From contig JAGLSB010000256.1 of assembly GCA_023135955.1 (NCBI GenBank), forward strand, positions 1 through 33,697: a stretch of DNA of 33,697 nt. The letters run 5' to 3'. The notes below the pieces were generated by a model. That model saw only the letters and a list, made by a program, of their open reading frames with translations, was not told where the DNA came from and ran no database searches. Both the position numbers and the translations under genes were made by a program. Shown here in pieces: positions 13,224 through 30,690 of the stretch. How positions within the stretch are numbered: position 1 is the first letter of the stretch; the number at the start of each line of letters is the position of its first letter. The stretch is from Bacteroidales bacterium (GTDB lineage: Bacteria > Bacteroidota > Bacteroidia > Bacteroidales > GCA-2748055).

Positions 13224-13841
13224 TTAGCAGCCCCCGGCAACTCTCTTTTTCTTCTTCTTTGAAGTTATAACAGGCTTTGCGGGAATTGCTGATTTTGCAG
13301 TATTTCCCTCAACAGATCCACCTAAAGCCATAGAAGCACCCTTGCGAAAATTATATTTTGCAATCTCTTCATCAGGACTTGTAGAAGAAGGAGGAACAGG
13401 GTTAATTATTGTTTCTGCCCAGTAGTTTAAACCACCTTGTAGAACATAGTTGTTTGAATATCCTAACTGCCTTGTTATCATCCATGCTTCATTCGAATTC
13501 AAGGAACCATTCGAGTAAAAAACATTCATTTTTACATCCTGATCAAGAATATCAACATATTGATCTGCAAGTAATTCAGAAAGAGGAATGTTGATTGCTC
13601 CTGGCAGACTGAATTTATCAAATTCATCAGGAGTCCGGACATCAATTAATTGAAGAGAAGGATCTTGTTGAACTAACATATCAGCAACATTATCAGGATG
13701 AATATAAGGTTCATAGCTAACAGCTTCCTGTAGAAGTTCATTGGCTGTAAGTTTATATTGTTTTGTTGTATTAGATGGCACTGCAGCTATAATCAGAGCC
13801 ATCGGAATAATAAAACCAGCCAGTAAAAGTCTTGAATTCAT
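13224..13841 (-). CDS. Exported rhodanese-like protein lacking the active-site Cys, with a single C-terminal Cys
   Basis: A 205-residue protein with an N-terminal hydrophobic export/anchor segment (residues 5-21) and one rhodanese domain (about 48-145). QLIDVRTPDEFDKFSLPGAI is the classic CH2 motif and YVLQGGLNYW the C-terminal motif. The catalytic loop reads VFYSNGS, so the sulfur-carrying Cys is Ser110 (codon TCG). The only Cys in the whole protein is Cys205, the last residue, at the end of a flexible Ser/Pro/Lys-rich tail closing KKKKKRVAGGC. This recalls the C-terminal GGCGG arm of SoxY. It is the last gene of the sulfur operon, 86 bases after the second YeeE gene. A role as periplasmic sulfur carrier is inference; classical thiosulfate:cyanide transferase activity is unlikely. 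Confidence 0.88.
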   Translation of the reverse strand: MNSRLLLAGFIIPMALIIAAVPSNTTKQYKLTANELLQEAVSYEPYIHPDNVADMLVQQDPSLQLIDVRTPDEFDKFSLPGAINIPLSELLADQYVDILDQDVKMNVFYSNGSLNSNEAWMITRQLGYSNNYVLQGGLNYWAETIINPVPPSSTSPDEEIAKYNFRKGASMALGGSVEGNTAKSAIPAKPVITSKKKKKRVAGGC

Positions 13842-13927: not shown

Positions 13928-14518
13928 TTAATATTCTTCTCTTGGAAATTTTTTCTCAGCCCATTCACCAATCCAGAACATTCCAAAGGCTACCAAGACT
14001 ATAATTAAAGCCATAAGTCCGTCTTTGATTCCCATAAACTCACTAATTTTGGGAATACCAAGAAATTTAGCTTTATAGAAATCTTCCCATAAAGGATATC
14101 CTTCTCCAAAAATAAATATCCCAAGGATTAAGCCCACTATAAATACCATAGCATCAATCTTTCCAATTGAGGCCCCACAAAAACTTGTTCCCGGGCAGAA
14201 TCCGCCAAGAATAAATCCCGCTCCCATTATTACTCCGCCAGCAATTGCTGAATATAAGAAAGTAGGATTGATATAAATCAGACTCAAATCAATCCATCCA
14301 AAAAGGCTTAAAAATAACAAACCAATCATGGCTGTAATGGCTGCGGTAAAAAAGACTTTAAGCACAACAGTATCGTAACCGTAAAAAACTCCGGCTAGTT
14401 TTCGGCTTGAAGAAAAGCCGGCACCTTCCAAAACGAAACCGAACCCGATTCCTATAAGAAATGCAAAAACCAGATTTGTATCTGTCGTTATTATTTCATT
14501 TGCTACTAAAGGACCCAT
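13928..14518 (-). CDS. YeeE/YedE-family sulfur transporter, half-size protein (second of a pair)
   Basis: A 196-residue polytopic membrane protein of the YeeE/YedE (TsuA-like) family, whose studied member imports thiosulfate through conserved cysteines. Two such cysteines are visible in GGFCPGTSFCGASIGK (Cys108 and Cys114). FGFVLEGAGFSSSRKLAGVFYGYD (about 27-50, split here by motif) is the matching N-terminal half repeat. There are roughly five membrane helices. Full-length family members hold both halves in one chain of about 350 residues; here two adjacent genes give about 370 together. It is 62 bases downstream of the other half and precedes the rhodanese-like gene. Confidence 0.9.
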   Translation of the reverse strand: MGPLVANEIITTDTNLVFAFLIGIGFGFVLEGAGFSSSRKLAGVFYGYDTVVLKVFFTAAITAMIGLLFLSLFGWIDLSLIYINPTFLYSAIAGGVIMGAGFILGGFCPGTSFCGASIGKIDAMVFIVGLILGIFIFGEGYPLWEDFYKAKFLGIPKISEFMGIKDGLMALIIVLVAFGMFWIGEWAEKKFPREEY

Positions 14519-14580: not shown

Positions 14581-15108
14581 TCAAATCCAGTTTTTTCGAA
14601 CAAAATATGCCAATGCATAACCTGTTCCAAAAATGGCAGCCATTGAAATAAATCCACCAAGTGAAAGAACAGCCATTCCGCTAAGAGCAGACCCACTTGT
14701 GCATCCACGTCCTAACTGCGACCCAAATCCAAAAAGGACACCACCTATTAATGCAAAAATCAGCCTTCTTTTTGAAGTAATTTTCGGTGAATGTTCGACT
14801 TTAAGTTTTAGTCTTCCAGAGAGTGCTCCAGAAAGAAATCCGCCAACCAATACACCAAGCATTTCAAAAACTAACCAGGCTTTCATAGGCTTCGGGTGAG
14901 CTTCTTTATAATCAGAAAAGTAAGAAGCTTTTTCAGCATGAGCTGGAGCTACAGCATCTACAGTTGTTACAATCGCACTTTTAATTGCTCCACTTGCTCC
15001 AAGTCCGCGCCCTGAAACAAAATATGCCATAAGCAAAATGATACCCAACAAAACACCTGCAAGGTAAGGATTCATGTAAGCTTTTGATTTTTGTTCTTTT
15101 GTTGTCAT
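14581..15108 (-). CDS. YeeE/YedE-family sulfur transporter, half-size protein (first of a pair)
   Basis: A 175-residue membrane protein of the YeeE/YedE family. After a short basic N-terminus come helix 1 (PYLAGVLLGIILLMAYFVSG), the SGRGLGASG loop, a polar periplasmic segment and a central helix pair (WLVFEMLGVLVGGFLSGALS). GGVLFGFGSQLGRGCTSGSA then carries the conserved Cys136, and GFISMAAIFGTGYALAYFV is the final helix. It probably pairs with the downstream half to form one thiosulfate/sulfur-species channel. It lies 22 bases after the NrfD-like gene, in the same operon. Confidence 0.9.
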   Translation of the reverse strand: MTTKEQKSKAYMNPYLAGVLLGIILLMAYFVSGRGLGASGAIKSAIVTTVDAVAPAHAEKASYFSDYKEAHPKPMKAWLVFEMLGVLVGGFLSGALSGRLKLKVEHSPKITSKRRLIFALIGGVLFGFGSQLGRGCTSGSALSGMAVLSLGGFISMAAIFGTGYALAYFVRKNWI

Positions 15109-15130: not shown

Positions 15131-16072
15131 TCAATAAAGCCACCTACTGGTTTGGCCGGCAAAGGTAATAATAAACCTAAGTAAAATACCCCCAAAGATT
15201 ACCAGCAGAGCAGGAACAAATAAGGGGATTTTAAATTTCCATAATTCTAATATTTCTAGTATAGCAGGAATTACCATACCCATTAAAACTACCAATACCC
15301 AGAATGCAGCTGTATAGGATCCACCCAGAAATAGACTCGCAGCATCAATTTGTACCTGAGTACTGGCAAGGAGACCCATGAAAAGATGCACAATAAGAAA
15401 TAGTTCTACACCAATTAGTGCTAAATCTATAGTAGAAAAAGTTTTTTTCTCTAAATGAGTTTTGGCGAAGAGAATATTCATTGCAGCCCCTGTTGATAAT
15501 CCGGATACAAGAAACAAAGGCCCCAGAATAGATGTGTTCCATAACGGACGTGCATTAAATGCCGATAATAATATTCCCGTATACATCCCAAGAATTAAGG
15601 AGGATATTATCATTGCCCAGGCAATTACTTTTTTATATTTTATAAAAAATTCTTCAATAATATCAAGCCAGGGAAAGGGCCATTTAAATGAAGGGAAGAC
15701 TTTCTTTAAATGTATTGCAGCCCAAATAAAAGATAAGGGTGTCACAATCATAAGTACCCAGGCTCCCCACGACATAGGCGATTCTAATCTTATAGTTGTA
15801 TAAAGTCGCCAGAAATAAAGCTTATGATGCAGGTCTAAAAACAATGAAATTAGCCCAATAACTAATAAAAACGGAACTATCAAAGGAGTTTTTTCTATTG
15901 CGGTAGGAAAATCTTTTTCTTTACCATTGATTGTATAAAAGGCAGCGAAAAATAGAATGCCAGCCGCGAGTCCACCAAGGAAAAGGTAAATTGGTATCTC
16001 CCAATGCCAGATATTCAGATAGGGATCAATCTTGGGATTCATCCTTCCGCTAGTGATAATTTCTTCTCTCAT
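15131..16072 (-). CDS. NrfD/PsrC-like integral membrane subunit
   Basis: A 313-residue polytopic protein, about eight hydrophobic segments, of the NrfD/PsrC family. These subunits anchor the molybdoenzyme and ferredoxin to the membrane and exchange electrons with menaquinone. The opening HWEIPIYLFLGGLAAGILFF is the family signature region, followed by LDLHHKLYFWRLYTTIRLES and PMSWGAWVLMIVTPLSFIWA, also typical of PsrC. Length matches PsrC/PhsC-type proteins. It is 20 bases after the ferredoxin gene and just before the YeeE pair, consistent with one complex of A, B and C subunits. Confidence 0.9.
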   Translation of the reverse strand: MREEIITSGRMNPKIDPYLNIWHWEIPIYLFLGGLAAGILFFAAFYTINGKEKDFPTAIEKTPLIVPFLLVIGLISLFLDLHHKLYFWRLYTTIRLESPMSWGAWVLMIVTPLSFIWAAIHLKKVFPSFKWPFPWLDIIEEFFIKYKKVIAWAMIISSLILGMYTGILLSAFNARPLWNTSILGPLFLVSGLSTGAAMNILFAKTHLEKKTFSTIDLALIGVELFLIVHLFMGLLASTQVQIDAASLFLGGSYTAAFWVLVVLMGMVIPAILEILELWKFKIPLFVPALLVIFGGILLRFIITFAGQTSRWLY

Positions 16073-16092: not shown

Positions 16093-16626
16093 TTAAATGA
16101 GAAAATATAGCTGTGGCTCTGTCCCTGCTTGTGGGATAAGAGTTTTGTATTTTCTTGTTTTTAAAATTTCTGAAACCTCACTCTTGGGGTCATCAAGGTC
16201 GCCAAAATATAGACAGTTTGTAGGACATACTCCTACACATGCGGGTTGCTGACCTTTCTCAACACGGTGAACACAAAAAGTACACTTATCCACATGTCCA
16301 TCCGGATGAGGATATCGCGCATCGTATGGACAGGATGCGATGCAGGCTCCACAACCAATACATTCATTTGGAGTAACAAGAACAATTCCCCCCTCAACAA
16401 TATGACTGGCTCCGGTAGGGCAACAACGTACACAAGGAGAGTTGTCGCAGTGATTACATCTCTCAGAACGAATCTCCATTTCTAATTGTGGATAGGTTCC
16501 ATCGGTAACTTCAACGATCCAATCACGACAATATCCGATCGGAACATTATTTTCTGTCTGACATGCTATCACGCAATCGGAGCAGCCAACACATTTTTTA
16601 GTGTCTATTGCCATTGCATATCTCAT
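16093..16626 (-). CDS. 4Fe-4S ferredoxin subunit of the molybdoenzyme complex (PsrB/PhsB-like)
   Basis: A 177-residue electron-transfer subunit with four cysteine clusters: CVGCSDCVIAC (residues 12-22), CNHCDNSPCVRCCP, CIGCGACIASCPYDARYP, and CTFCVHRVEKGQQPACVGVCP. This is the DmsB/PsrB arrangement binding four [4Fe-4S] clusters that pass electrons between the NrfD subunit and the catalytic subunit. There is no signal peptide, as expected if it is carried out with the Tat-exported partner. Its ATG overlaps the stop of the catalytic gene (ATGA), a sign of translational coupling and equal dosage. Confidence 0.95.
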   Translation of the reverse strand: MRYAMAIDTKKCVGCSDCVIACQTENNVPIGYCRDWIVEVTDGTYPQLEMEIRSERCNHCDNSPCVRCCPTGASHIVEGGIVLVTPNECIGCGACIASCPYDARYPHPDGHVDKCTFCVHRVEKGQQPACVGVCPTNCLYFGDLDDPKSEVSEILKTRKYKTLIPQAGTEPQLYFLI

Positions 16627-18860
16627 AGTATGGCCTCCTCTGGTTTTTCAGTTAAAAAACTAACAAAATTTCCCCTCATTCCGGTCCCTCCCATAATTGG
16701 GTCTTCCATTACATTGCTAATCAATTGCGTATCGCTGGCTCCTTTTCCGTAACATCTAGTAAGTTGTTTTTGGGCATGTCCGAATCCGTGTACCATATAA
16801 ACTGAATCCCAACGAATTCTTTCAGTAATCCTTACTTTAATAGGAAATGAAGATACTATGCCATCCTGATTAATTAGCCAAACCGGCTGAGCATTTTCCA
16901 AGTTCCAGAGACTTGCAACTTTTGGATTAACCCACAATACATTTTCTTCCATCAAATCTGTCAGGTTAGCATTATTGGCAGTACGTGAAAATGTATGCAT
17001 TGGAGCTCGCCCGTAGTTGAGACGGTAAAAACCCTCGGGAGGTTGAGGGTGCTCTGTATAATTTGGCATGGCATCAAAACCTTGCTCCACAAAAGAACTG
17101 GAATACAACTCAATCTTACCGGTATTGGTAAAGAATTCCACATCCTCATTTTCAGTAAAATATAAATCATCCCATTCGCGCTCGTAGGTTTTTACGCCTA
17201 TTTTTTGCATTTCTTCTAATGAAGAGCCAACTTCTTTAAGTTGCCAATTGAGCATTTCCTCAATATTATCATAAGGTACAAAATGTCCAAGTCCAAGCTT
17301 TTCAGCCAGCTGCTTGGCAATCCACCATGCAGGTTTAGTATTATATTTAGGCTCAACCGCAGGCATTCTTAAAGCGATGGCAGGTTTTCGATGAGGGCTT
17401 ACTCTTATGGCGTCGTATCTTTCAAGATATGTGCATTCTGGTAGTACTACATCTGCGTAACTAACTATTTCCATTGGCATGGTATCCACAACAACAATAA
17501 AATCCAAAGCGTCAATAGCTTCAAGGGTTTTTGCGGTGTCTGGCAAAGTGTTAATCAGGTTAGTACCATTCACGATCCACATTTTGAAATTACATGATCT
17601 GTCAATCGAAGGAATTGTTGCATCACAAACTCCTGAAGCCAGAGTTTCATCAGCAAGATTATATTTTCCCGGGAAAGCATCTCTCCATGTTCTTGCAGGT
17701 TTAGGAAACTCAGGATGCGGGTATGAAGGAACACTTAGTTTAGATGGAGCATAAAAGCCTCCTCTTCGCCCCCAGGAGCCTAATAAAGCATTTAATATTG
17801 CAACAGCTCTTAATCTTTGGGTATCATCGCCATACCAAGTAACATGGCGTCCGGGATGAATAATTACAGCAGGAGAGGCATTTGCCATTTCCTTTGCTGT
17901 TTTTCTTATAATATCTGGCTGGATGGTAGTTTTTCCATAAGCCCATTCGGGAGTCATGGTTCTAACATGCTCTTTGAGATAATCAAATCCAAAAGTATAT
18001 TTCTCTACATATCTTTTATCGTACCATTCCTCATAGATTATCACATGTATCCATGCAAGTAATAATGCCAAATCAGTTGCGGGCTTAATTGGAAGCCAGT
18101 ATTTTGATTTGCCGGCAGCAACTGAAAATCTTGGGTCAACAGTAATTATTGTAGCACCTTTGTCAATGGCAGCAGACATTTCCTGAACCTGACCGTTGTG
18201 CATATTTTCACCCAAGTGGGAACCAATTAAAACCAGACATTTTGTGTCGCGAATATCTGTTCTTTCCGGAGATCCTATTCCCTCACCAAAGGTATTGGTG
18301 AAGGCTACTTCGCGAGGACCACGACATTGAGCATAAGATGGAGCCGCTATATTGGTTGAGCCAAAGGCTTTTAAAGTATCTCCAAAAAATTTACCTCCAG
18401 AGCCATGAGTCAGCAAAGCTATACACTCCGCGCCATGTTCAGCTGATATTTTTTTCATGTTTTCAGCTACAAGATCCAAAGCTTCATCCCAACTTGCTTC
18501 GCGGAATTTAAACTCACCTCTTTTTCCTGTTCTTATTAAAGGAGTCTTTAGCCTGTCTTCATCATAATACATACCAACTCCTCCTGTACCTCTGGGACAA
18601 AAGCGCCCATTACTGTGTTGGTCTTCATCGTTTCCAATGATTTTCCAAATGTGGCCATCTTTTGTTTTGTAAACCCAACCTGCGCATTTCCAAAAGCAAA
18701 CTTCACAATATGTTGGAGTACGGGTGAGGTTAATAGTGAGTTCATCGGGGTTATTCTTGATTTCAGTGAAATCATCAATGTATTTGCATGCCCCCAACCC
18801 CACAGTCATTCCGCCAATACCAATAGTGGATAATTTTAAAAACTGTCTACGGTTTGCCAT
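16623..18860 (-). CDS. Tat-exported molybdopterin oxidoreductase, PsrA/PhsA-like catalytic subunit
   Basis: A 745-residue bis-MGD enzyme of the DMSO-reductase superfamily. The Tat signal is RRQFLKL at residues 4-10, followed by a glycine-rich core and GLGAC, with Cys25 in a lipobox-like position. The N-terminal [4Fe-4S] site is Cys52, Cys55, Cys59 and Cys88 (C-x2-C-x3-C-x28-C). The likely Mo ligand is Cys179 in YAQCRGPREVAF, after FGSTNIAAPS, close to the position known in PsrA. Later motifs include IHPGRHVTWYGDD, DTMPMEIVSYADVVLPECTYLERYD and the C-terminal cofactor-binding TNANL-type region. Operon partners (ferredoxin, NrfD, YeeE, rhodanese) point to a sulfur substrate, most likely polysulfide or thiosulfate; a tetrathionate, sulfite or arsenate role is not excluded. 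Confidence 0.9.
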   Translation of the reverse strand: MANRRQFLKLSTIGIGGMTVGLGACKYIDDFTEIKNNPDELTINLTRTPTYCEVCFWKCAGWVYKTKDGHIWKIIGNDEDQHSNGRFCPRGTGGVGMYYDEDRLKTPLIRTGKRGEFKFREASWDEALDLVAENMKKISAEHGAECIALLTHGSGGKFFGDTLKAFGSTNIAAPSYAQCRGPREVAFTNTFGEGIGSPERTDIRDTKCLVLIGSHLGENMHNGQVQEMSAAIDKGATIITVDPRFSVAAGKSKYWLPIKPATDLALLLAWIHVIIYEEWYDKRYVEKYTFGFDYLKEHVRTMTPEWAYGKTTIQPDIIRKTAKEMANASPAVIIHPGRHVTWYGDDTQRLRAVAILNALLGSWGRRGGFYAPSKLSVPSYPHPEFPKPARTWRDAFPGKYNLADETLASGVCDATIPSIDRSCNFKMWIVNGTNLINTLPDTAKTLEAIDALDFIVVVDTMPMEIVSYADVVLPECTYLERYDAIRVSPHRKPAIALRMPAVEPKYNTKPAWWIAKQLAEKLGLGHFVPYDNIEEMLNWQLKEVGSSLEEMQKIGVKTYEREWDDLYFTENEDVEFFTNTGKIELYSSSFVEQGFDAMPNYTEHPQPPEGFYRLNYGRAPMHTFSRTANNANLTDLMEENVLWVNPKVASLWNLENAQPVWLINQDGIVSSFPIKVRITERIRWDSVYMVHGFGHAQKQLTRCYGKGASDTQLISNVMEDPIMGGTGMRGNFVSFLTEKPEEAIL

Positions 18861-19022: not shown

Positions 19023-20234
19023 TTAGAAAGATTCTGAATTGTTTTTCTGTTGTGATTTTATGCTTTCGAGCCAATTTTCGGCTTCAGAGATTATACGCAC
19101 AAAAGTTTGAAAAGGTTTTTTATAAAAAAGTTTAAATTCGGAATAATTTTCAATCATTATTGGAAATGTTCTAAATCCGGTCTGAAGAGCATAATATATC
19201 TTCATATAAACATTTCTTCTTTTGAGCAAAAAATTCTTGATTAAGGGATTTGCTATTTCCCTGCTTATTGCTGAAAAGCAGGTGATAACAAATACAGCTC
19301 TCAAAAGCATAGTAAATCCAGAAAACAGTGCTAATTGCAAGGAAAACTCTTCTTTTGAGTTTTCAAGAAAAATTGCTGCAAGAATTAATATAACAAGTAA
19401 TTGTGTCCAGAATAGTGGTTTAAGTAATCGACGGAATAGATTCTTGTATCGAGAAAGGCAAAATATGATATATACTGAGATTAATGAGAATTTAAGAAAA
19501 AAGGAATACTCCTGAGATAGGAACCAAAGTCCAATAATTAGAGATAAAAAATGAAGAATAAGCAGAAATTTTGAAAAAATCCCTGAATTTTTCTCTTCTT
19601 CTTTAATAGTTTTTTTCAAAGGATAATACTTTTTATCAGGTTTTATTCGAATAGCTTTTTTCCCAATAATATATCCCACAATAGCTGATATAAATCCTGT
19701 TATGAGATATACCATTGATAATAAAATTATTAATTGGATTGGAGAACTTTCTGGAAGATTAAGTTTTACAGCGGCAAAATTGATTAAATTTATATAGACC
19801 TCCACCAGATCAAAACTATATAATAGTATCAAATTTAACACTTTATGCAATAATGCGCTAAATACAGCTAATCCTGCACCCAATATATAGGAAAAAAGGT
19901 TTTTCCCGAATAATAAAATAATTATTTCGAGAATTAGAGCTTCAGAGAAAATTCCTATCATAGGTCCAAAAATTACTGCTGATGGAGAGATACTTTTCAT
20001 TAATGCACAGATAATACCGGCTCGTAAAATAATCCATCTTTGTGGCCAAATCTGATAGAATGCCACAAGAAACATTACTGCAAAGGCACTCAAAATTGTA
20101 CCCGCAAAAGGCATACGTAAATTATGGAGAAAGCTTCCAACAATGATTTCAAAACTAGCCCATAAACTGCCAATCACAATAGCTTTTAACCATGAATCAC
20201 TCAATTGAATATTTTTGAGTTTATCCTTACTCAT
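19023..20234 (-). CDS. Polytopic membrane protein of unknown function, possibly an ECF-transporter-like S and T fusion
   Basis: A 403-residue protein from ATG 20234 (a GTG two codons upstream is less likely) with about ten hydrophobic segments. The N-terminal 190 residues resemble an ECF-transporter substrate-binding (S) component: VIGSLWASFEIIVGSFL, then PFAGTILSAFAVMFLVAFYQ, an arginine-flanked helix, and FGPMIGIFSEALILEIIILL. A Lys-rich linker follows (about 195-220). The last 180 residues loosely resemble an EcfT/CbiQ scaffold (MLLRAVFVITCFSAISREIA, LQTGFRTFPIMIENY), but the Ala-Arg-Gly coupling motifs are not evident. The start overlaps the mobA stop by 8 bases, so it is coupled to mobA. 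A role in molybdenum or cofactor supply is inference. Confidence 0.7.
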   Translation of the reverse strand: MSKDKLKNIQLSDSWLKAIVIGSLWASFEIIVGSFLHNLRMPFAGTILSAFAVMFLVAFYQIWPQRWIILRAGIICALMKSISPSAVIFGPMIGIFSEALILEIIILLFGKNLFSYILGAGLAVFSALLHKVLNLILLYSFDLVEVYINLINFAAVKLNLPESSPIQLIILLSMVYLITGFISAIVGYIIGKKAIRIKPDKKYYPLKKTIKEEEKNSGIFSKFLLILHFLSLIIGLWFLSQEYSFFLKFSLISVYIIFCLSRYKNLFRRLLKPLFWTQLLVILILAAIFLENSKEEFSLQLALFSGFTMLLRAVFVITCFSAISREIANPLIKNFLLKRRNVYMKIYYALQTGFRTFPIMIENYSEFKLFYKKPFQTFVRIISEAENWLESIKSQQKNNSESF

Positions 20235-20808
20235 TTGCACTAAGGCGTTGGAAATCTTCTTGAGTATTAATATTGGAAAATAGTTGTGTTAATTTCGATT
20301 TGGAGTAGGGTAATTTATGGTAATGTGTTTTCTCCTGTTTTAGAAGATCTGACATTTTATAATTCTTCTTTTCTATCAGAAGATCTATTGAAGCCAAGCT
20401 TTTCTTTTTGTATATACCTACAAGAGATTCTGGATGTCCTGTTGAATTGACAGCAACAACAATATTATTATTCTTAATATTTTTTATTAATTCACTAATA
20501 GTTAGGTGATCTAATAGAGGGGTATCACAGCCAAGTACAATAGAATATTCATTTTTTGTTTTTATAAGGCATGTATGAATTCCTCCAATGGGGCCTAATC
20601 CAGGAACATCATCCGGGTATACCAAATGCCCCGTATTATTAAAAGATGGATTGGAGGAACTAATTATTATTTCATCACAAAAATGTTCCAGAATTTCGAG
20701 GGGATATCTAAACAATTCCTTCTCCTGGTATTTAATAAATGCCTTATCTTCACCCATTCGCTTACTTTTCCCCCCGGCAAGTAAAATACCGCTGATTTTT
20801 CTTTTCAT
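20227..20808 (-). CDS. mobA: Molybdenum cofactor guanylyltransferase
   Basis: A 193-residue nucleotidyltransferase that joins GMP to molybdopterin, the step needed for the bis-MGD cofactor of DMSO-reductase-family enzymes. The signature is LAGGKSKRMGEDKAF (residues about 9-23). The GTP/Mg site includes YPDDVPGLGPIGGIHT and GCDTPLL, and NSTGHPESLVGIYKK is the usual C-terminal substrate loop. The ATG at 20808 gives the standard MKRKISGILLAGG opening; a TTG at 20829 would add seven unrelated residues. It lies close to the molybdoenzyme operon it would serve and overlaps the downstream membrane-protein gene. Confidence 0.93.
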   Translation of the reverse strand: MKRKISGILLAGGKSKRMGEDKAFIKYQEKELFRYPLEILEHFCDEIIISSSNPSFNNTGHLVYPDDVPGLGPIGGIHTCLIKTKNEYSIVLGCDTPLLDHLTISELIKNIKNNNIVVAVNSTGHPESLVGIYKKKSLASIDLLIEKKNYKMSDLLKQEKTHYHKLPYSKSKLTQLFSNINTQEDFQRLSANE

Positions 20809-20905
20809 TATACATAAATATGGATTCAAGGAATTTCTTTCCCCAACAAGGGGTAATTAATAACCAGTAACAATCTATAATCTCTAATTACATAAAAATT
20901 AGCCA

Positions 20906-24472: not shown

Positions 24473-25366
24473 TTAATATTCCCATAAATCATGTTCAAAT
24501 TCAAAAAGCTTCATTTTAATTCTATCTGCCTCGTGAAGCACATCCTCTCCCATTAAATAATCAGAGAGATATCTGTTAAAAACATTGGTTTCTTTAGAAA
24601 TAAAAGATGCAAATCTTCTTTGAATAAATAAGTCATCAAAAGAAGTAGGTTGTGAATCGTTATGAGGATTATAAATTTCATATTGAGCAAAAAGATTTCT
24701 GTATTCAGGGAAGTAAATCCAGCAAAGAATTTCAGTTTGTACCTCAGGCAATGTTGTAACATTTCCATCTGAGTCAGTGATCGTTTCATTATAAATTTTG
24801 AGTGGAGCCAATCCCTGAATTCTAACACTCATTGTAGAGTGCTGTTTATCAAAGAACCACTTTTCTTTTACAAGATATTGTTTCACTAAATGACCATCGG
24901 GTATTATTTTCCCAAATACATCTTCGAACCCAAGCTTCTCAATAAGGGCGTCATAGGTCATTAATAGTTCTGTTGTGAACATATTATCTTCATCCGGATT
25001 GTAAAGTTTCAGGTTATGCTCCTTTATGCCATGCAGAATTAAGCTAAACAAATTCATTCTTTGTCCTGTGGGCTGGATCGGGTAGTATAATGCCTGATTC
25101 ATTTTTTCTCTCAGATCTAGTATTCTCCAAATATCCTTTGACCACAAAAAATCGGCTTCTCTCATGGAAACATATGGAATCGGCTTTTTATTTGTTATAT
25201 GGATTTTTTCATATACATTTATTATTGGTATGGAATCACCATCTACCTGAGTATTATTTGATGCCGGTTGCGTTGTTTGTGTCACACCACTATTTTGAGC
25301 TTGTGCAAAAAGGCTCAAGTTAAAAGCGAAAAACAAAGCGGCAACTATTAATAAGGTCTTTTTCAT
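24473..25366 (-). CDS. gldN: T9SS protein GldN/PorN
   Basis: Periplasmic component that, with the GldK lipoprotein, forms the ring under the outer membrane in the type IX secretion system. ATG at 25366 gives 297 residues with a clean signal peptide (MKKTLLIVAALFFAFNLSLFAQ); upstream in-frame starts would add 17 residues that spoil it. Conserved GldN stretches include READFLWSKDIWRILDLREK, NQALYYPIQP and ILCWIYFPEYRNLF. It is the last gene of the gldKLMN run, 96 bases after gldM, and ends at the strong terminator. Confidence 0.93.
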   Translation of the reverse strand: MKKTLLIVAALFFAFNLSLFAQAQNSGVTQTTQPASNNTQVDGDSIPIINVYEKIHITNKKPIPYVSMREADFLWSKDIWRILDLREKMNQALYYPIQPTGQRMNLFSLILHGIKEHNLKLYNPDEDNMFTTELLMTYDALIEKLGFEDVFGKIIPDGHLVKQYLVKEKWFFDKQHSTMSVRIQGLAPLKIYNETITDSDGNVTTLPEVQTEILCWIYFPEYRNLFAQYEIYNPHNDSQPTSFDDLFIQRRFASFISKETNVFNRYLSDYLMGEDVLHEADRIKMKLFEFEHDLWEY

Positions 25367-25462
25367 GTGGTTATAATTTTGTTCATTTGTAATATATAGC
25401 ATCATCCATTCAATCACTTCTATGTGTCAACTTCGCGGGATGCATGTTTAATTATTATAAAT

Positions 25463-27058
25463 TTATAATATTTTCAATACAATTGAATTTAATGTTCTTA
25501 CTTGACCTGCAGGTCCAATAGCCTTTACATCGGTTACCGTAAAATTCTTACCGGTGGATAATCGGCGGATAATATTTTTTTGCTTCTCAGTAAAGTTCGG
25601 GCCATTTGAAGGTTCTCTGGTTGTAAATCCACCTGCACCGACAGCAGAAACTATAAATTCGGTAATTTCAAATTCTAACTCAAAATCAAAATCCTCCATT
25701 TCCGCAGTAACCCCGGAAGCGCGAGAAAGGTCAGTAAGTGAAATTGCCCCTTTTGATCTTCCACCTATCTTTGCTATAGGATCGGGAACATCTTTTACTC
25801 TGAAAGGCTCTTCTCCCATAAATTTTTCTTGTCCGTCAACATCGGCAAACACCCTAATTGTAACTATTTCGCCTTCAGGACCGGCGGCGGGTAAGACTTC
25901 CCACCCACTTGCGCCCTGCGTTAATCTTCCTTTGCTAATTCTTGCTCTAATACTTTCTTTAGGTACGCCGGCAACGGAAATAGCAACTGGATTTTTTACA
26001 CTTCTGTAAAATACATTCATTTTAGTAGGAGAGACAACTGCACTAGCTTCGGCTACCCGATAGGAAGCCTCAAAATCTCTTACAATAGGAGCTGATCCAT
26101 CGCCTTCAAGAATAATAGTTCCCCCCCAATTCATAGGACCTAGGGCTGATGTTGATCCAATAAAAATTCCCTTACCATCCTGAACTTCTAATTCTTCTCC
26201 TGAAGTTAACTTTATAGTTGGAAATTTAGTAGAATCATAGGCTGCAAGAAATACCCTGGCTTTATATTCTTGGCCTTTAAATACATAGTCGGATCCTGCC
26301 AGAACAACAGCCTCAATTTTATTAAACTTAAATGATCCGGCATCGATCTGACTAAGAAGGTAAGACAGTATCTCGGCTTCAGCAAACCTCACATCAGACT
26401 GCATCTTAGAAAGTATAGTTACAACTGAAGCAAGAGGAAGATTTTCAAAATGCTCTGATTCCCAAGTTCTAATTTCACCACCATGTCCCTTTTTTTTGCT
26501 GTGCGGATCGTGAGTAGGGTCATGAGTATCAAGTGTGCTTTCTAATGCATGTACTATTGTAATATAAGTCTCTTTATCTTCGATCAGATCTAATAAAAAA
26601 TCCCGGAATTCGTTAATATTTTCTTGAACATCCTCACCGCCCCCTTCATTCATCATTACCTGACCGCCAATACTTGTATTATCTTTTCCCAAAATTTTAG
26701 AAAGATCAACTTCTCCTTCATGTATAGCTTCTGTATCTTCACCTTCTGATATTATTGCTAATCTTCTTTTGTATTCCTGAATTAATTCATTCAGTGCATC
26801 AGCTTTTTCTCTTACTTCATCAGCTTTATTTTTCCACGACTCTACTTTAGTTTTATTTAATTCATAAGCAGATTCAAAATCGGTGTAATATGAACTGTTT
26901 TTTTCGTGAAAATTAGCGGTAGTCTTAGTCAAACCTTTATCAACAAGTTCGAATGCGTCAAGTACATCCTTTGCAACGTTAAGTGCTAACAATGCAGTTA
27001 GCACCAAGTACATCATACCAATCATTTTTTGACGTGGAGTTTCCTTACCGTGACCCAT
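25463..27058 (-). CDS. gldM: T9SS motor protein GldM/PorM
   Basis: A 531-residue inner-membrane protein with one N-terminal helix (residues about 12-32, MIGMMYLVLTALLALNVAKD) and a long periplasmic part of four domains. With GldL it forms the proton-driven motor that powers type IX secretion and gliding. The opening GHGKETPRQKMIGMMYLVLT is diagnostic. Later landmarks are NLPLASVVTILSKMQSDVR, MNVFYRSVKNPVAISVAGV and PDPIAKIGG. One His/Asp-rich loop (DPTHDPHSKKKGHGG) just before the second conserved block looks like a local insertion. It lies 12 bases after gldL. Confidence 0.95.
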   Translation of the reverse strand: MGHGKETPRQKMIGMMYLVLTALLALNVAKDVLDAFELVDKGLTKTTANFHEKNSSYYTDFESAYELNKTKVESWKNKADEVREKADALNELIQEYKRRLAIISEGEDTEAIHEGEVDLSKILGKDNTSIGGQVMMNEGGGEDVQENINEFRDFLLDLIEDKETYITIVHALESTLDTHDPTHDPHSKKKGHGGEIRTWESEHFENLPLASVVTILSKMQSDVRFAEAEILSYLLSQIDAGSFKFNKIEAVVLAGSDYVFKGQEYKARVFLAAYDSTKFPTIKLTSGEELEVQDGKGIFIGSTSALGPMNWGGTIILEGDGSAPIVRDFEASYRVAEASAVVSPTKMNVFYRSVKNPVAISVAGVPKESIRARISKGRLTQGASGWEVLPAAGPEGEIVTIRVFADVDGQEKFMGEEPFRVKDVPDPIAKIGGRSKGAISLTDLSRASGVTAEMEDFDFELEFEITEFIVSAVGAGGFTTREPSNGPNFTEKQKNIIRRLSTGKNFTVTDVKAIGPAGQVRTLNSIVLKIL

Positions 27059-27070
27059 AATAAATAATTA

Positions 27071-28033
27071 TTATTTTTTAGCTATAGTCATTGCTGACAG
27101 CATATTGCCATAAATATTATTTAATTCAGAGAGGTTCTGACTTAGTTTTGAAATTTCTTCTTTATACTTCTGTGTTTCTTCAACGGACAATTTAAGATCT
27201 TTCATCATTGTTGAGAGTTCTTTATATACAGCATCGTTTCCTTTCATATGTTCTTTACTTCCGGAAATTTGGGTTTCATATGCTGAATTCAACTCAGAAA
27301 GGTTATTATTTAAGCTAGCCAATTGGGATCCAAATTCTTTATGTCCTTGTGATATATTTGAATAATCAGCTTTTACAGTATTCGTTAATTCTGTGTAAGA
27401 ACTAGTTAATTCGGCAGATTGCCTGGTAAATTTTTGCGCAATTTCTTCACCTGATTTATTGATAACATCTGCAGTATTTTTATAGGAAGATGCCAGAGAA
27501 CTGACCGACTCATTGAGATGATCAGTATTGCTAGAATATGAAGTAGCAACCGATTTTACAGCTGCGGCAGCAGCATTCATATTATCAAGATAATCAGTAG
27601 TCGCAATTGAAGCTTCAGAAATATTTGAAAGGTTTCCAGAAGCTTCACTAAGACTTGTTAATCCCTTGCTCAGGCTATTAATTGTTTCCGGTTGTATGTT
27701 AGCATCCTGGATAAGTTCATCGAATTTTTGAAGTCCAACGCCACGTCCGGCAAGCCCCTCTTCTTTAATCTGGTCGAGGTCATCATCGTCGGATAAGTCA
27801 GCTAACTCAGGATAAACAAGTGTCCAGTCTAACTCTTCATGAAGAGGCTCGAATGCAGAGAAGAAGAAAATTACAGCTTCTGTTCCAAGTCCTGCTGTAA
27901 TCATAAGAGATGCACCTGGCCAGTGCATGATTTTAAATAATGCTCCAATGATAACCACAGCTGCACCAATACCGTACAACTTGGCCATAAAATTTTTCCA
28001 TCCGGAACTCTGAACAATTTCAGCAAAATTCAT
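27071..28033 (-). CDS. gldL: T9SS motor protein GldL/PorL
   Basis: A 320-residue inner-membrane protein with two adjacent membrane helices (about 18-35 and 41-60) and a long cytoplasmic coiled-coil tail rich in Ser, Asn, Leu and Glu. Known GldL proteins surround the GldM helices and conduct protons. Glu52 in TAGLGTEAVIFFFSAFEP corresponds to the conserved membrane-embedded glutamate of the motor, and LFKIMHWPGA carries the conserved KxxHWPG stretch. The coiled-coil half (residues about 110-310) is low in complexity, as is typical. It lies 12 bases after gldK. Confidence 0.95.
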   Translation of the reverse strand: MNFAEIVQSSGWKNFMAKLYGIGAAVVIIGALFKIMHWPGASLMITAGLGTEAVIFFFSAFEPLHEELDWTLVYPELADLSDDDDLDQIKEEGLAGRGVGLQKFDELIQDANIQPETINSLSKGLTSLSEASGNLSNISEASIATTDYLDNMNAAAAAVKSVATSYSSNTDHLNESVSSLASSYKNTADVINKSGEEIAQKFTRQSAELTSSYTELTNTVKADYSNISQGHKEFGSQLASLNNNLSELNSAYETQISGSKEHMKGNDAVYKELSTMMKDLKLSVEETQKYKEEISKLSQNLSELNNIYGNMLSAMTIAKK

Positions 28034-28045
28034 AGTATATAGTTT

Positions 28046-29407
28046 TTAATTATTACCTAAATAAGATCTAACACACCTGAATCCAATGTAAGATTTAGCT
28101 GTATCCTGATATTCATAATCATTTACACTAACCTGAAGATAATAGGCTACATCTTTCCAGGATCCCCCTCTGATAACTTTTCTTTTCATAACAGGTGGAT
28201 CATCGGGTTTAGCATTGTATTTATAGTCAGGATTCATATTATGAGTAAACATAAAGGAAGATTCATCATATGCACTTGAAGTCCATTCCGCAACGTTTCC
28301 CGCCATGTCATAAAGGCCATATTCATTGGGAGCATAGGTTCCAACTCTTGCTGGAATCAAAGATCCATCATCGACATAATTTCCTCTTAATGGTTTAAAG
28401 TTAGCAACAAAGCATCCTAAAAGGTTTCTGGTATAAGGACCTCCCCATGGATACATGCTTTGATCCAGATTCCCTCTGGCAGCATATTCCCATTCTCCTC
28501 CGGTAGGGAGTCTGTATTCTTGCACAAAAGGATGACCCTGAGCAGAAAGTGCAGAATTTAAATATTGAGTTCTCCAGATTGAAAAGGCATTTGCCTGATT
28601 CCAGGTTACTCCAACCACAGGATAATTATCATATGAAGGGTGGTAGAAATATAAATTGGCATAAGGCTCATTAAAAGAATAGGTAAAATCTGATATCCAA
28701 ACCAGTGTATCAGGATAGACCGGAATTTCGTTCTTAAACACGAAAGATTGTCTGCCTTCTATAGGAGAAGTGGTTCCATCAGGATTAACAACGGTTCCTT
28801 CATACTCTTTAGTAACCCGATTGAAACGATTGGCTCTTTTAGACGCTTGTTGTAAATCTATCCAATAGTAACTGTAAATTAAATTTTCAACTGCTACTTC
28901 TTTTTTACCAAAAAATTGCGCATCACCAGTATAATAAACACCAATTCTTTCTATTGCAGCTTGTACATCGCCATTTTCATCCTGATAATCAATTTCTGTA
29001 TCCCAATTAATTCTTGGTGATTCTTGTCCATTTTTTATCATATTAATTGGATTCTCCTCCCTGTCTTTCAGTATATAATCATCAATTTGATCATCAACAA
29101 GAGCTTGAAGTAACAAAGAATCTTTTACCCATTTAACAAACTGGCGATATTCGTTATTAGTAATCTCTGTGTCATCCATCCAGAATGCATCAACAGTTAC
29201 AGTTTTTGAGGCATTGTTTTGTGCGAAAGAAATATCTTGATCGCTCGGGCCGGTTACGAAACTACCTGAAGGGATGAAAGTCATTCCAAACGGATCGGCT
29301 TCAACGTAAGAGTTTCTGCCTTGCACACCAACTAATTCTCCATTATTATAGTTGGAACAGCTGCTTAAAATTGCCAACACGAACACTAAGGAAATAAACT
29401 TTTTCAT
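28046..29407 (-). CDS. gldK: T9SS lipoprotein GldK/PorK
   Basis: A 453-residue outer-membrane lipoprotein that builds the periplasmic ring with GldN. The signal peptide ends at LSSC, with lipidated Cys17. The rest is a formylglycine-generating-enzyme/sulfatase-modifying-factor fold: GMTFIPSGSFVTGPSDQD, VDAFWMDDTEITNNEYRQFV, PVVGVTWNQANAFSIWR, YRLPTGGEWEYAARG, YGLYDMAGNVAEWTSSAY and VIRGGSWKDVAYYLQ. In this family the fold is structural and not known to be catalytic. A promoter -7 element lies 39 bases upstream of its ATG, so it heads the gldKLMN operon. Confidence 0.95.
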   Translation of the reverse strand: MKKFISLVFVLAILSSCSNYNNGELVGVQGRNSYVEADPFGMTFIPSGSFVTGPSDQDISFAQNNASKTVTVDAFWMDDTEITNNEYRQFVKWVKDSLLLQALVDDQIDDYILKDREENPINMIKNGQESPRINWDTEIDYQDENGDVQAAIERIGVYYTGDAQFFGKKEVAVENLIYSYYWIDLQQASKRANRFNRVTKEYEGTVVNPDGTTSPIEGRQSFVFKNEIPVYPDTLVWISDFTYSFNEPYANLYFYHPSYDNYPVVGVTWNQANAFSIWRTQYLNSALSAQGHPFVQEYRLPTGGEWEYAARGNLDQSMYPWGGPYTRNLLGCFVANFKPLRGNYVDDGSLIPARVGTYAPNEYGLYDMAGNVAEWTSSAYDESSFMFTHNMNPDYKYNAKPDDPPVMKRKVIRGGSWKDVAYYLQVSVNDYEYQDTAKSYIGFRCVRSYLGNN

Positions 29408-29445
29408 AACTTTTCGGTTCTTATTATGCTCAAAAAAAATATTTA

Positions 29446-29453
29446 CAAATATA
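29446..29453 (-). promoter_or_regulatory. -7 promoter element upstream of gldK
   Basis: The minus strand reads TATATTTG, an exact TAnnTTTG match, 39 bases before the gldK ATG. At the -33 position only TTTTAGT is found, so the assignment is partial. It would allow gldKLMN to be transcribed independently of porP. Confidence 0.45.
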
Positions 29454-29490
29454 AAACTAATAAAATTCTTACTAAAAATAGTCTAAATTC

Positions 29491-30426
29491 TTATAAAAAT
29501 CTAATACTCTTATACCTTTGTGGTGTTTTATCCAGACTAAGGTCAAAACAGTATCCAACTGTAAGTTCATGAGTTCCGGAACTATATTTACTTATTTTGG
29601 ACACTATAAAATCATAAGAATATCCAATTTTTACTCCGTTAAATAATTCAAGGCCAAAAATTCCTACTATTGCATCTCCTGGTCTGTATGAAACGCCACC
29701 CCAAAATCTTTTATTGTATCTTAGGTTTGTATTTATATAAAGCTGATTGGCCTTGCCATCAGATTTTAGAACAAATGTAGGCATTACTTCGAACATAGGA
29801 TTTGAAAGTTGTAAATTATATCCAGCCGTTAAATAATAATGTCTAACCAAATATGGACTTGCATTTTCATATTTTATTTCAGCCTGATTTAAATGAGTGG
29901 TTGAAATTCCCAAAAAAAGTTTTTCAGTATTATAGAAAATGCCTAAACCCATATCAAACCCCACTCTGCTTTCCTTCGTTTGAGGAATCTCAGGATCTCC
30001 AGCAATATCACCTTCATTGTTTATCCAGTCAGGGTCAAGTGATTTATTAATAATTCCAAGACTTGTACCAAATGCAAGTTTCCCATCACCCAGATTCATT
30101 CTATAGGCATAATTCAAATTTAGCCCCAAATCAGAATTAAAAGCAAATGCATCATTCATAATCGAAAGTCCTAAACCATGATCAGCACCAAAAAAACTAA
30201 AAGAACCATCAGCACTGAAAAATGAAGTGGAAGGAGCGCCATCAAAACCAACCCATTGCTCATGATGAGCCATATTTAAACAAACTTTTTCGTTGGCACC
30301 TGCAGCTGCAGGATTAAAGGCGGTCAATACTGACCGGGTCTGACTGAATTCAGGATCCTGCTGCGAAAATAAATTTACAGAGCTAATAAAAAAAATGATA
30401 AATATGCTAAAATTTCTGACTTTCAA
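29491..30426 (-). CDS. porP: PorP/SprF-family T9SS outer-membrane protein
   Basis: A type IX secretion protein predicted to be an outer-membrane barrel of the PorP/SprF family, which helps link the GldK/GldN ring to the membrane or to its substrates. The mature start QQDPEFSQ, then LTAFNPAAAGANEKVCLNM and HHEQWVGFDGAPSTSFFSAD are the family's N-terminal signature. It ends in FGLELFNGVKIGYSYDF and HELTVGYCFDLSL. There is no ATG near the beginning: TTG at 30426 gives 311 residues with a normal signal peptide (KVRNFSIFIIFFISSVNLFS). A TTG at 30507 would add a 27-residue basic extension before the signal. gldK follows after the stop's 83-base downstream gap in the usual T9SS order. Confidence 0.9.
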   Translation of the reverse strand: MKVRNFSIFIIFFISSVNLFSQQDPEFSQTRSVLTAFNPAAAGANEKVCLNMAHHEQWVGFDGAPSTSFFSADGSFSFFGADHGLGLSIMNDAFAFNSDLGLNLNYAYRMNLGDGKLAFGTSLGIINKSLDPDWINNEGDIAGDPEIPQTKESRVGFDMGLGIFYNTEKLFLGISTTHLNQAEIKYENASPYLVRHYYLTAGYNLQLSNPMFEVMPTFVLKSDGKANQLYINTNLRYNKRFWGGVSYRPGDAIVGIFGLELFNGVKIGYSYDFIVSKISKYSSGTHELTVGYCFDLSLDKTPQRYKSIRFL

Positions 30427-30690
30427 TCTGTTGTTAAGCTTTGTAAATATTGAACTTGCGACACTTCGTAAATGGTTAAAATAACTAAAAAACTTTCTTA
30501 GTAACAAATTTTATTAACAGTTTATTGTTAATTACTTTATTTATTTTTTAGATCAGTGAAATTTAATGACGAATGACATAATTGAAGAAAGAAAGATCCA
30601 ATATCTTTAGTTACATAAATGGGAAAATCCAAATTTTTTTACCTGAAAAAGGTGGCTTATAAAAATATTTACTCTTTTCAAAATAAATAA

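Follow-up and report, generated by a model that had tools for sequence, protein, structure and literature searches.

Rhodanese-fold proteins with a conserved C-terminal Gly-Gly-Cys arm accompany split YeeE channels in Bacteroidota and are probable periplasmic sulfur carriers

What does a rhodanese-fold protein do when its former catalytic loop holds no cysteine and the only cysteine of the chain is its very last residue? This question is raised by a gene in a contig of a Bacteroidales bacterium (JAGLSB010000256.1), analyzed here over its full length of 33,697 nucleotides (the window). The gene product, for which we coin the name RhodA, is encoded together with a molybdopterin oxidoreductase complex and the two halves of a YeeE-type sulfur transporter (Table 1).

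Table 1. Position of RhodA, its sequence features and the adjoining genes in the window.
Feature	Position	Strand	Remarks
RhodA, rhodanese-fold protein with C-terminal GGC arm, 205 aa	13224..13841	minus	
RhodA N-terminal hydrophobic helix, residues 3-20	13782..13835	minus	membrane anchor or signal
RhodA former catalytic loop VFYSNGS, residues 107-113	13503..13523	minus	Ser110 at Cys position
RhodA flexible tail, residues 176-205, with Lys-rich stretch	13227..13316	minus	pLDDT mostly <60; variable except GGC
RhodA terminal Gly203-Gly204-Cys205	13227..13235	minus	C205 and G204 invariant in 46 RhodA
YeeE2, split YeeE/YedE half (Sulf_transp)	13928..14518	minus	Cys108 conserved in 99%
YeeE1, other half	14581..15108	minus	only Cys, C136, conserved in 100% of 129
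NrfD/PsrC-type membrane subunit	15131..16072	minus	PF03916, 153.7 bits
4Fe-4S electron-transfer subunit, NrfC/DsrO/TtrB-like	16093..16626	minus	profile matches
Molybdopterin oxidoreductase, PhsA/PsrA-like	16623..18860	minus	best NCBIfam match PhsA; twin-arginine-type N-terminus MANRRQFLK

The translation of RhodA runs from MNSRLLL to KKKKKRVAGGC, with C205 as both the lone cysteine and the final residue. A Pfam scan identified Rhodanese (PF00581, residues 53-143; 55.2 bits vs. a cut-off of 22.2) as the sole domain, and the best fold matches in the PDB are rhodanese domains, placing the protein in the rhodanese superfamily by domain as well as fold. It lacks the CxxGxR motif of rhodanese sulfurtransferases, which is replaced by SNGSLN, with the Cys, Gly and Arg all gone; Ser110 was assigned to the catalytic Cys position by counting back from the SxEA motif behind the loop. 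This serine is at least 90% conserved, and a loop cysteine is found in none of the 46 aligned RhodA orthologues (0/46). In an AF2 model the rhodanese core is confident, residues 3-20 form an N-terminal helix, and the chain is disordered from residue 176 on. A previous, sequence-only reading of the window had pointed out the serine in place of cysteine in the VFYSNGS loop, the single cysteine of the 205-residue protein at its AGGC end, and the length and flexibility of the tail, which are confirmed by the alignment, the ORF translation and the AF2 model, respectively.

Homologues were detected in 63 of 149 related genomes and in 61 of 395 genomes drawn evenly from the Bacteroidota, and a single-protein scan also placed homologues in three MAGs. 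The unfiltered tally amounts to 183 distinct homologous ORFs, including 123 single-domain proteins and 41 proteins in which YeeE2 is fused to a rhodanese domain. A GGC or xGC end, sometimes followed by one further residue, is present in 112 of the single-domain homologues, and all 41 fusions have a GGC or xGC (EGC) end. C205 and G204 are invariant in the 46 aligned stand-alone RhodA proteins, in which the preceding tail varies; because of this pattern, together with the conservation of S110, the terminal GGC is, as judged from the alignment, not a product of chance. GGC is also invariant in an alignment of 37 fusions (A2), which was filtered on the tail, so that its invariance is to be weighed with the unfiltered 41/41. 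Since the soluble domain of these fusions is otherwise invariant only at P277 and G324, the alignment suggests that the terminal cysteine is the part of the fused rhodanese under the strongest constraint. A plasmid search returned ordinary or unclear rhodaneses only.

The 11 single-domain exceptions consist of four proteins cut at contig ends, two with apparent frameshifts, one short conventional rhodanese, one with internal stops, and three that are apparently real. In one exception (L026) a shifted frame encodes a KKAVQGGCS end; L041, L067 and L113 contain apparently intact genes without a GGC or xGC end. Variant ends also occur in recognizable groups: stand-alone members from other classes (L137, L138, L139, L142) end in KKKK(K/R)EGC instead of GGC, and at these loci a Cys-rich gene precedes the Mo gene (in L138, where it was scanned, a MerR-type regulator), while a subgroup (L143, L125, L129) has (L)VRMGC-like tail ends. 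At L143, YeeE1 and YeeE2 precede the rhodanese, and no recognized oxidoreductase is found there.

A loop cysteine is found in none of the 41 fusions (0/41) and in only about five stand-alone members. The residue at its position is mostly Ser in stand-alone members and mostly Ala or Gly in fusions, and serine as such is therefore not the point. Five single-domain members possess a loop cysteine and the GGC tail together, and the tail is also found on nine paralogues from the same operons that have two rhodanese domains (RhodC), nearly all of them also with loop cysteines. Because some members combine the two, the GGC tail is a module added to the rhodanese domains of the RhodA system, catalytic or not. 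The proposal that the cysteine of RhodA had ‘moved’ to the end of the chain therefore holds insofar as most members have lost the loop cysteine and kept the terminal one, but not for the members that have both; the expectation that the two features co-occur beside YeeE/NrfD genes was largely borne out across the phylum. Double-rhodanese ORFs of about 365-383 aa with loop cysteines are present at L032, L041, L048, L049, L050, L053 and L058; in several operons the double rhodanese is a third paralogue beside RhodA and RhodB, mostly with a lipobox and the same GGC tail, and it may be the loading sulfurtransferase of the system.

The genes adjoining rhodA had been read as two sulfur-transporter halves and a psr-like complex, and profile searches recovered all of these parts: two Sulf_transp proteins, NrfD, a 4Fe-4S protein and a molybdopterin subunit. 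The neighborhood thus unites the Mo, FeS and NrfD subunits characteristic of PhsABC/PsrABC complexes with the Sulf_transp domain and channel cysteines characteristic of YeeE/YedE. PhsA is the best-scoring NCBIfam model for the Mo subunit (469 bits), and because this score lies below the equivalog cut-off of 694, we consider the enzyme a likely, rather than an established, thiosulfate or polysulfide reductase. The gene order Mo-FeS-NrfD-YeeE1-YeeE2-Rhod, with one to three rhodaneses, is recurrent throughout the order and also occurs in other classes. In a second arrangement, seen at about 40 loci (including incomplete ones), genes for an octaheme cytochrome and a cytochrome b are followed by YeeE1 and by YeeE2 fused to a rhodanese; matches of the octaheme protein to TIGR04315 (tetrathionate reductase family) reach 572-629 bits over a cut-off of 375, and its b-type partner is similar to a thiosulfate reductase cytochrome b. 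Since both arrangements share YeeE1, YeeE2 and the rhodanese, these three form the constant core of the system, the variable part being a quinone-linked enzyme that, judging from its family, would make or break S-S bonds.

Both modules, Mo and octaheme, are present at one locus from a Bacteroidetes MAG (L136), where DUF1641, DsrC and DsrE2 genes lie directly upstream of the Mo-YeeE-rhodanese operon (L136:2132-3650) and possibly represent a cytoplasmic continuation of the sulfur path. In the window itself, a putative MobA-like molybdenum cofactor gene, recognized by eye from its translation, lies close to the Mo operon (20227-20829), and genes resembling a GldKLMN/PorP type IX secretion and gliding cluster were likewise seen by eye at 24473-30507, as fits a Bacteroidota host.

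Several sequence features bear on where the rhodanese domain resides. The helix preceding it is more positively charged on its N-end side in most stand-alone proteins (98/111) and most fusions (37/41); a lipobox is present in 12 GGC-tailed paralogues; and in the fusions a transmembrane helix, equivalent to the N-terminal helix of RhodA, separates YeeE2 from the rhodanese domain. Taken together with the twin-arginine-type Mo subunit, the charge bias, the lipoprotein paralogues and the fusion helix lead us to predict that the rhodanese domain is periplasmic and tethered to the inner membrane. The membrane part of an AF2 model of the fusion is poor, and the position of the arm is not readable from it.

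Operons with more than one tailed rhodanese provide a further view of the tail. At 29 loci with at least two such proteins, the first two tails of each operon were compared over 11 positions, namely the ten residues before the final Gly-Cys and the residue after the Cys or its absence. Tails agree at 7.97 of 11 positions within an operon vs. 3.58 between operons (permutation p 5e-5), whereas the cores agree to 29.3% within and 28.5% between operons (p 0.18); the residue after the Cys is identical in all 7 of the pairs having one. Shared composition is ruled out as the cause of this likeness, since the order of residues agrees at 5.97 of 9 positions vs. 2.19 after shuffling. Recent gene conversion is not supported and is not the main cause, given that matching tail residues use the same codon in 54% of cases (0.54) vs. 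50% (0.50) expected from local usage; the synonymous codons have drifted, and selection therefore works at the protein level. Tails agree within operons, cores are no more alike there than between operons, and recent DNA copying is not the main cause; this is explained most simply if every tail of an operon has to fit one common partner.

Tails that coevolve inside an operon are also what a docking or redox tether with a common binding partner would produce, the thiol forming a mixed disulfide with, or ligating, a YeeE half, the cytochrome or the Mo complex, and either holding the complex together or sensing redox state; the Lys-rich stretch could then bind an acidic surface or lipid head groups. 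The neighbors, however, are all sulfur-redox or sulfur-transport genes, and a flexible arm with Gly-Gly before the Cys resembles known carriers. Moreover, the YeeE2 fusions are already tethered, yet the terminal cysteine is kept in every case. We therefore regard the tether as unlikely, though deserving of serious consideration.

Relatives of YeeE/YedE transport selenium, and the terminal thiol might accordingly bind selenide or a soft metal. The YeeE halves do match selenium YedE models weakly, and one locus (L145) adjoins a cytochrome related to ExtM of a selenite/tellurite operon. The enzymes encoded with the GGC rhodaneses nevertheless belong to the Phs/Psr and octaheme tetrathionate-reductase families, and one locus is flanked by the DsrC and DsrE2 genes described above, making a selenium or metal system improbable.

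GGC is short, terminal and common to the paralogues of one operon, as a C-terminal sorting or lipid-attachment signal might be. When the host genome (4.6 Mb, 88% complete) was scanned for codon patterns encoding GGC-stop, however, only a handful of places were found, of which RhodA is the only protein-sized ORF, the others being 3-41 codons long; a general sorting tag is thereby rejected, as this end belongs to a single host protein. The tailed proteins already have an N-terminal anchor or a lipobox, the tail is also carried by the fusions, which are integral to the membrane, and the hydrophobic segment of known C-terminal sorting signals is missing, so that we give this explanation very little credence. 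Less plausible still is removal of the Cys and conversion of the exposed Gly-Gly to a thiocarboxylate, as in ThiS/MoaD-like carriers, which when made with an extended C-terminus are processed in this manner: a GG-Cys end is compatible with such processing, but the fold is rhodanese rather than beta-grasp, the periplasmic site lies away from ATP-dependent E1-like enzymes, the Cys is conserved as much as the glycines, and EGC and MGC ends occur.

Among known sulfur carriers, the closest parallel to the arm is SoxY, a periplasmic protein whose swinging arm has a conserved GGC motif with the sulfur-binding cysteine (PMC11237559, PMC5336275). The flexible C-terminal arm of RhodA likewise ends in a GGC cysteine, but RhodA differs from SoxY in its rhodanese fold and in being membrane-anchored or fused to YeeE2. 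A Pfam scan found neither a SoxY domain (PF13501) nor a DsrC/TusE domain (PF04358), which also has a C-terminal arm cysteine, in RhodA. No SoxY was detected in the host genome, and 145 of the 147 genomes searched likewise lack one; a single clear SoxY (L181, genome G036; 68.9 bits) was recovered from these 147 relatives, in a genome that also encodes GGC rhodaneses. In lucinid symbionts, some divergent soxY genes neighbor otr, and others neighbor YeeE/D together with dmsAB (PMC11237559), i.e., the same partners would there be served by another carrier. The best reading, by analogy, is that RhodA may work like SoxY but is not SoxY.

The rhodanese fold itself is reminiscent of Sud, a rhodanese-like polysulfide carrier of Wolinella (1qxn), and the relationship is detectable at the sequence level (E 2.5e-5). 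Sud serves a Psr complex and binds sulfur on its loop cysteine, the residue that is absent from RhodA; to our knowledge, Sud has no GGC arm.

The YeeE channel offers a second comparison. The proposed route of thiosulfate through Spirochaeta thermophila YeeE leads from C293 via C91 to C22 and on to a fourth cysteine, on the cytoplasmic protein YeeD (PMC11073785). Each split half encoded with RhodA retains one channel cysteine, C136 in YeeE1 and C108 in YeeE2, of which C136 aligns to C293. The RhodA system thus resembles YeeE-YeeD (TsuA-TsuB) in having a YeeE-family channel with a carrier cysteine alongside, but its channel consists of two halves, the third channel cysteine, C22, is without a counterpart among their conserved cysteines, and the carrier is periplasmic and rhodanese-like instead of cytoplasmic and TusA-like. 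That the tail cysteine stands in for a missing periplasmic YeeE cysteine is excluded, as the halves keep the first cysteine, C293, and the missing C22 is on the cytoplasmic side. PmpA and PmpB are also half-size, split YeeE proteins with one conserved cysteine each (PMC11582611), as are YeeE1 and YeeE2; in contrast to the RhodA system, a plasmid-borne operon from Hymenobacter, of the ordinary YeeE/DUF6691 type, encodes a tailless rhodanese whose loop has the usual CRSGARS sequence. A search of the host genome (88% complete) yielded no TusA, the protein that commonly accepts sulfur in the cytoplasm.

The conserved arm, the operon of sulfur genes, the YeeE2 fusion, the periplasmic placement, the concerted tails and the channel cysteines lead us to rate one explanation as most likely: RhodA is probably a tethered periplasmic sulfur carrier with the terminal thiol as its working group. 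The sequence-only reading had proposed a periplasmic carrier with a SoxY-like swinging thiol, and the disordered tail, periplasmic location, YeeE2 fusion and concerted tails speak for it, while from genomic context we infer the carriage of sulfur, the cargo species and the direction of flow. The rhodanese fold, devoid of sulfurtransferase chemistry, would serve as a docking body, and the terminal cysteine on its flexible basic arm would pick up sulfane sulfur (Cys-S-S-) or a thiosulfonate group (Cys-S-SO3-) at a quinone-linked S-S oxidoreductase, i.e., the Phs/Psr-type Mo complex here and the octaheme tetrathionate-reductase-type cytochrome with cytochrome b elsewhere. The split channel might then receive the sulfur on its first cysteine, which lies on the periplasmic side (YeeE1 C136), and carry it to the cytoplasm. 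The carrier thiol beside the C293 equivalent would be an entry cysteine, as that of YeeD is an exit cysteine, making the system in outline a mirror image of YeeE-YeeD, whose carrier cysteine waits on the cytoplasmic side. Candidate cargoes are sulfane sulfur and thiosulfate, and flow could be into the cytoplasm or between periplasmic enzymes.

The fold, the channel, the enzyme families and the swinging-arm type of carrier are already known. We found no description in the open-access literature of a rhodanese with a C-terminal GGC, or of its association with YeeE/PmpAB or octaheme reductases; the combination of these parts, the occurrence across the phylum of a GGC arm on rhodaneses lacking the loop cysteine, and the YeeE2 fusion thus appear undescribed there. 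The RhodA system bears on the open question of how periplasmic sulfur enters the cytoplasm, a route stated to be unknown for thiosulfate oxidation in Hyphomicrobium; that SoxY might pass sulfur from its cysteine on to those of a YeeE-type channel (SoxT) is raised only as conceivable (PMC11582611). We see an even chance that, phylum-wide, periplasmic swinging-arm carriers built on a dead rhodanese fold feed split YeeE channels directly, such that periplasmic sulfur oxidation or reduction and transmembrane transfer would form one coupled machine (group translocation), the Bacteroidota counterpart of SoxY-SoxT. Because many Bacteroidota encode the carrier arm and a channel half in a single polypeptide, this hand-over is directly testable with few proteins. 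With RhodA, a second fold is seen to have acquired a Gly-Gly-Cys arm, and a possible role emerges for those rhodanese-like proteins that lack the catalytic cysteine.
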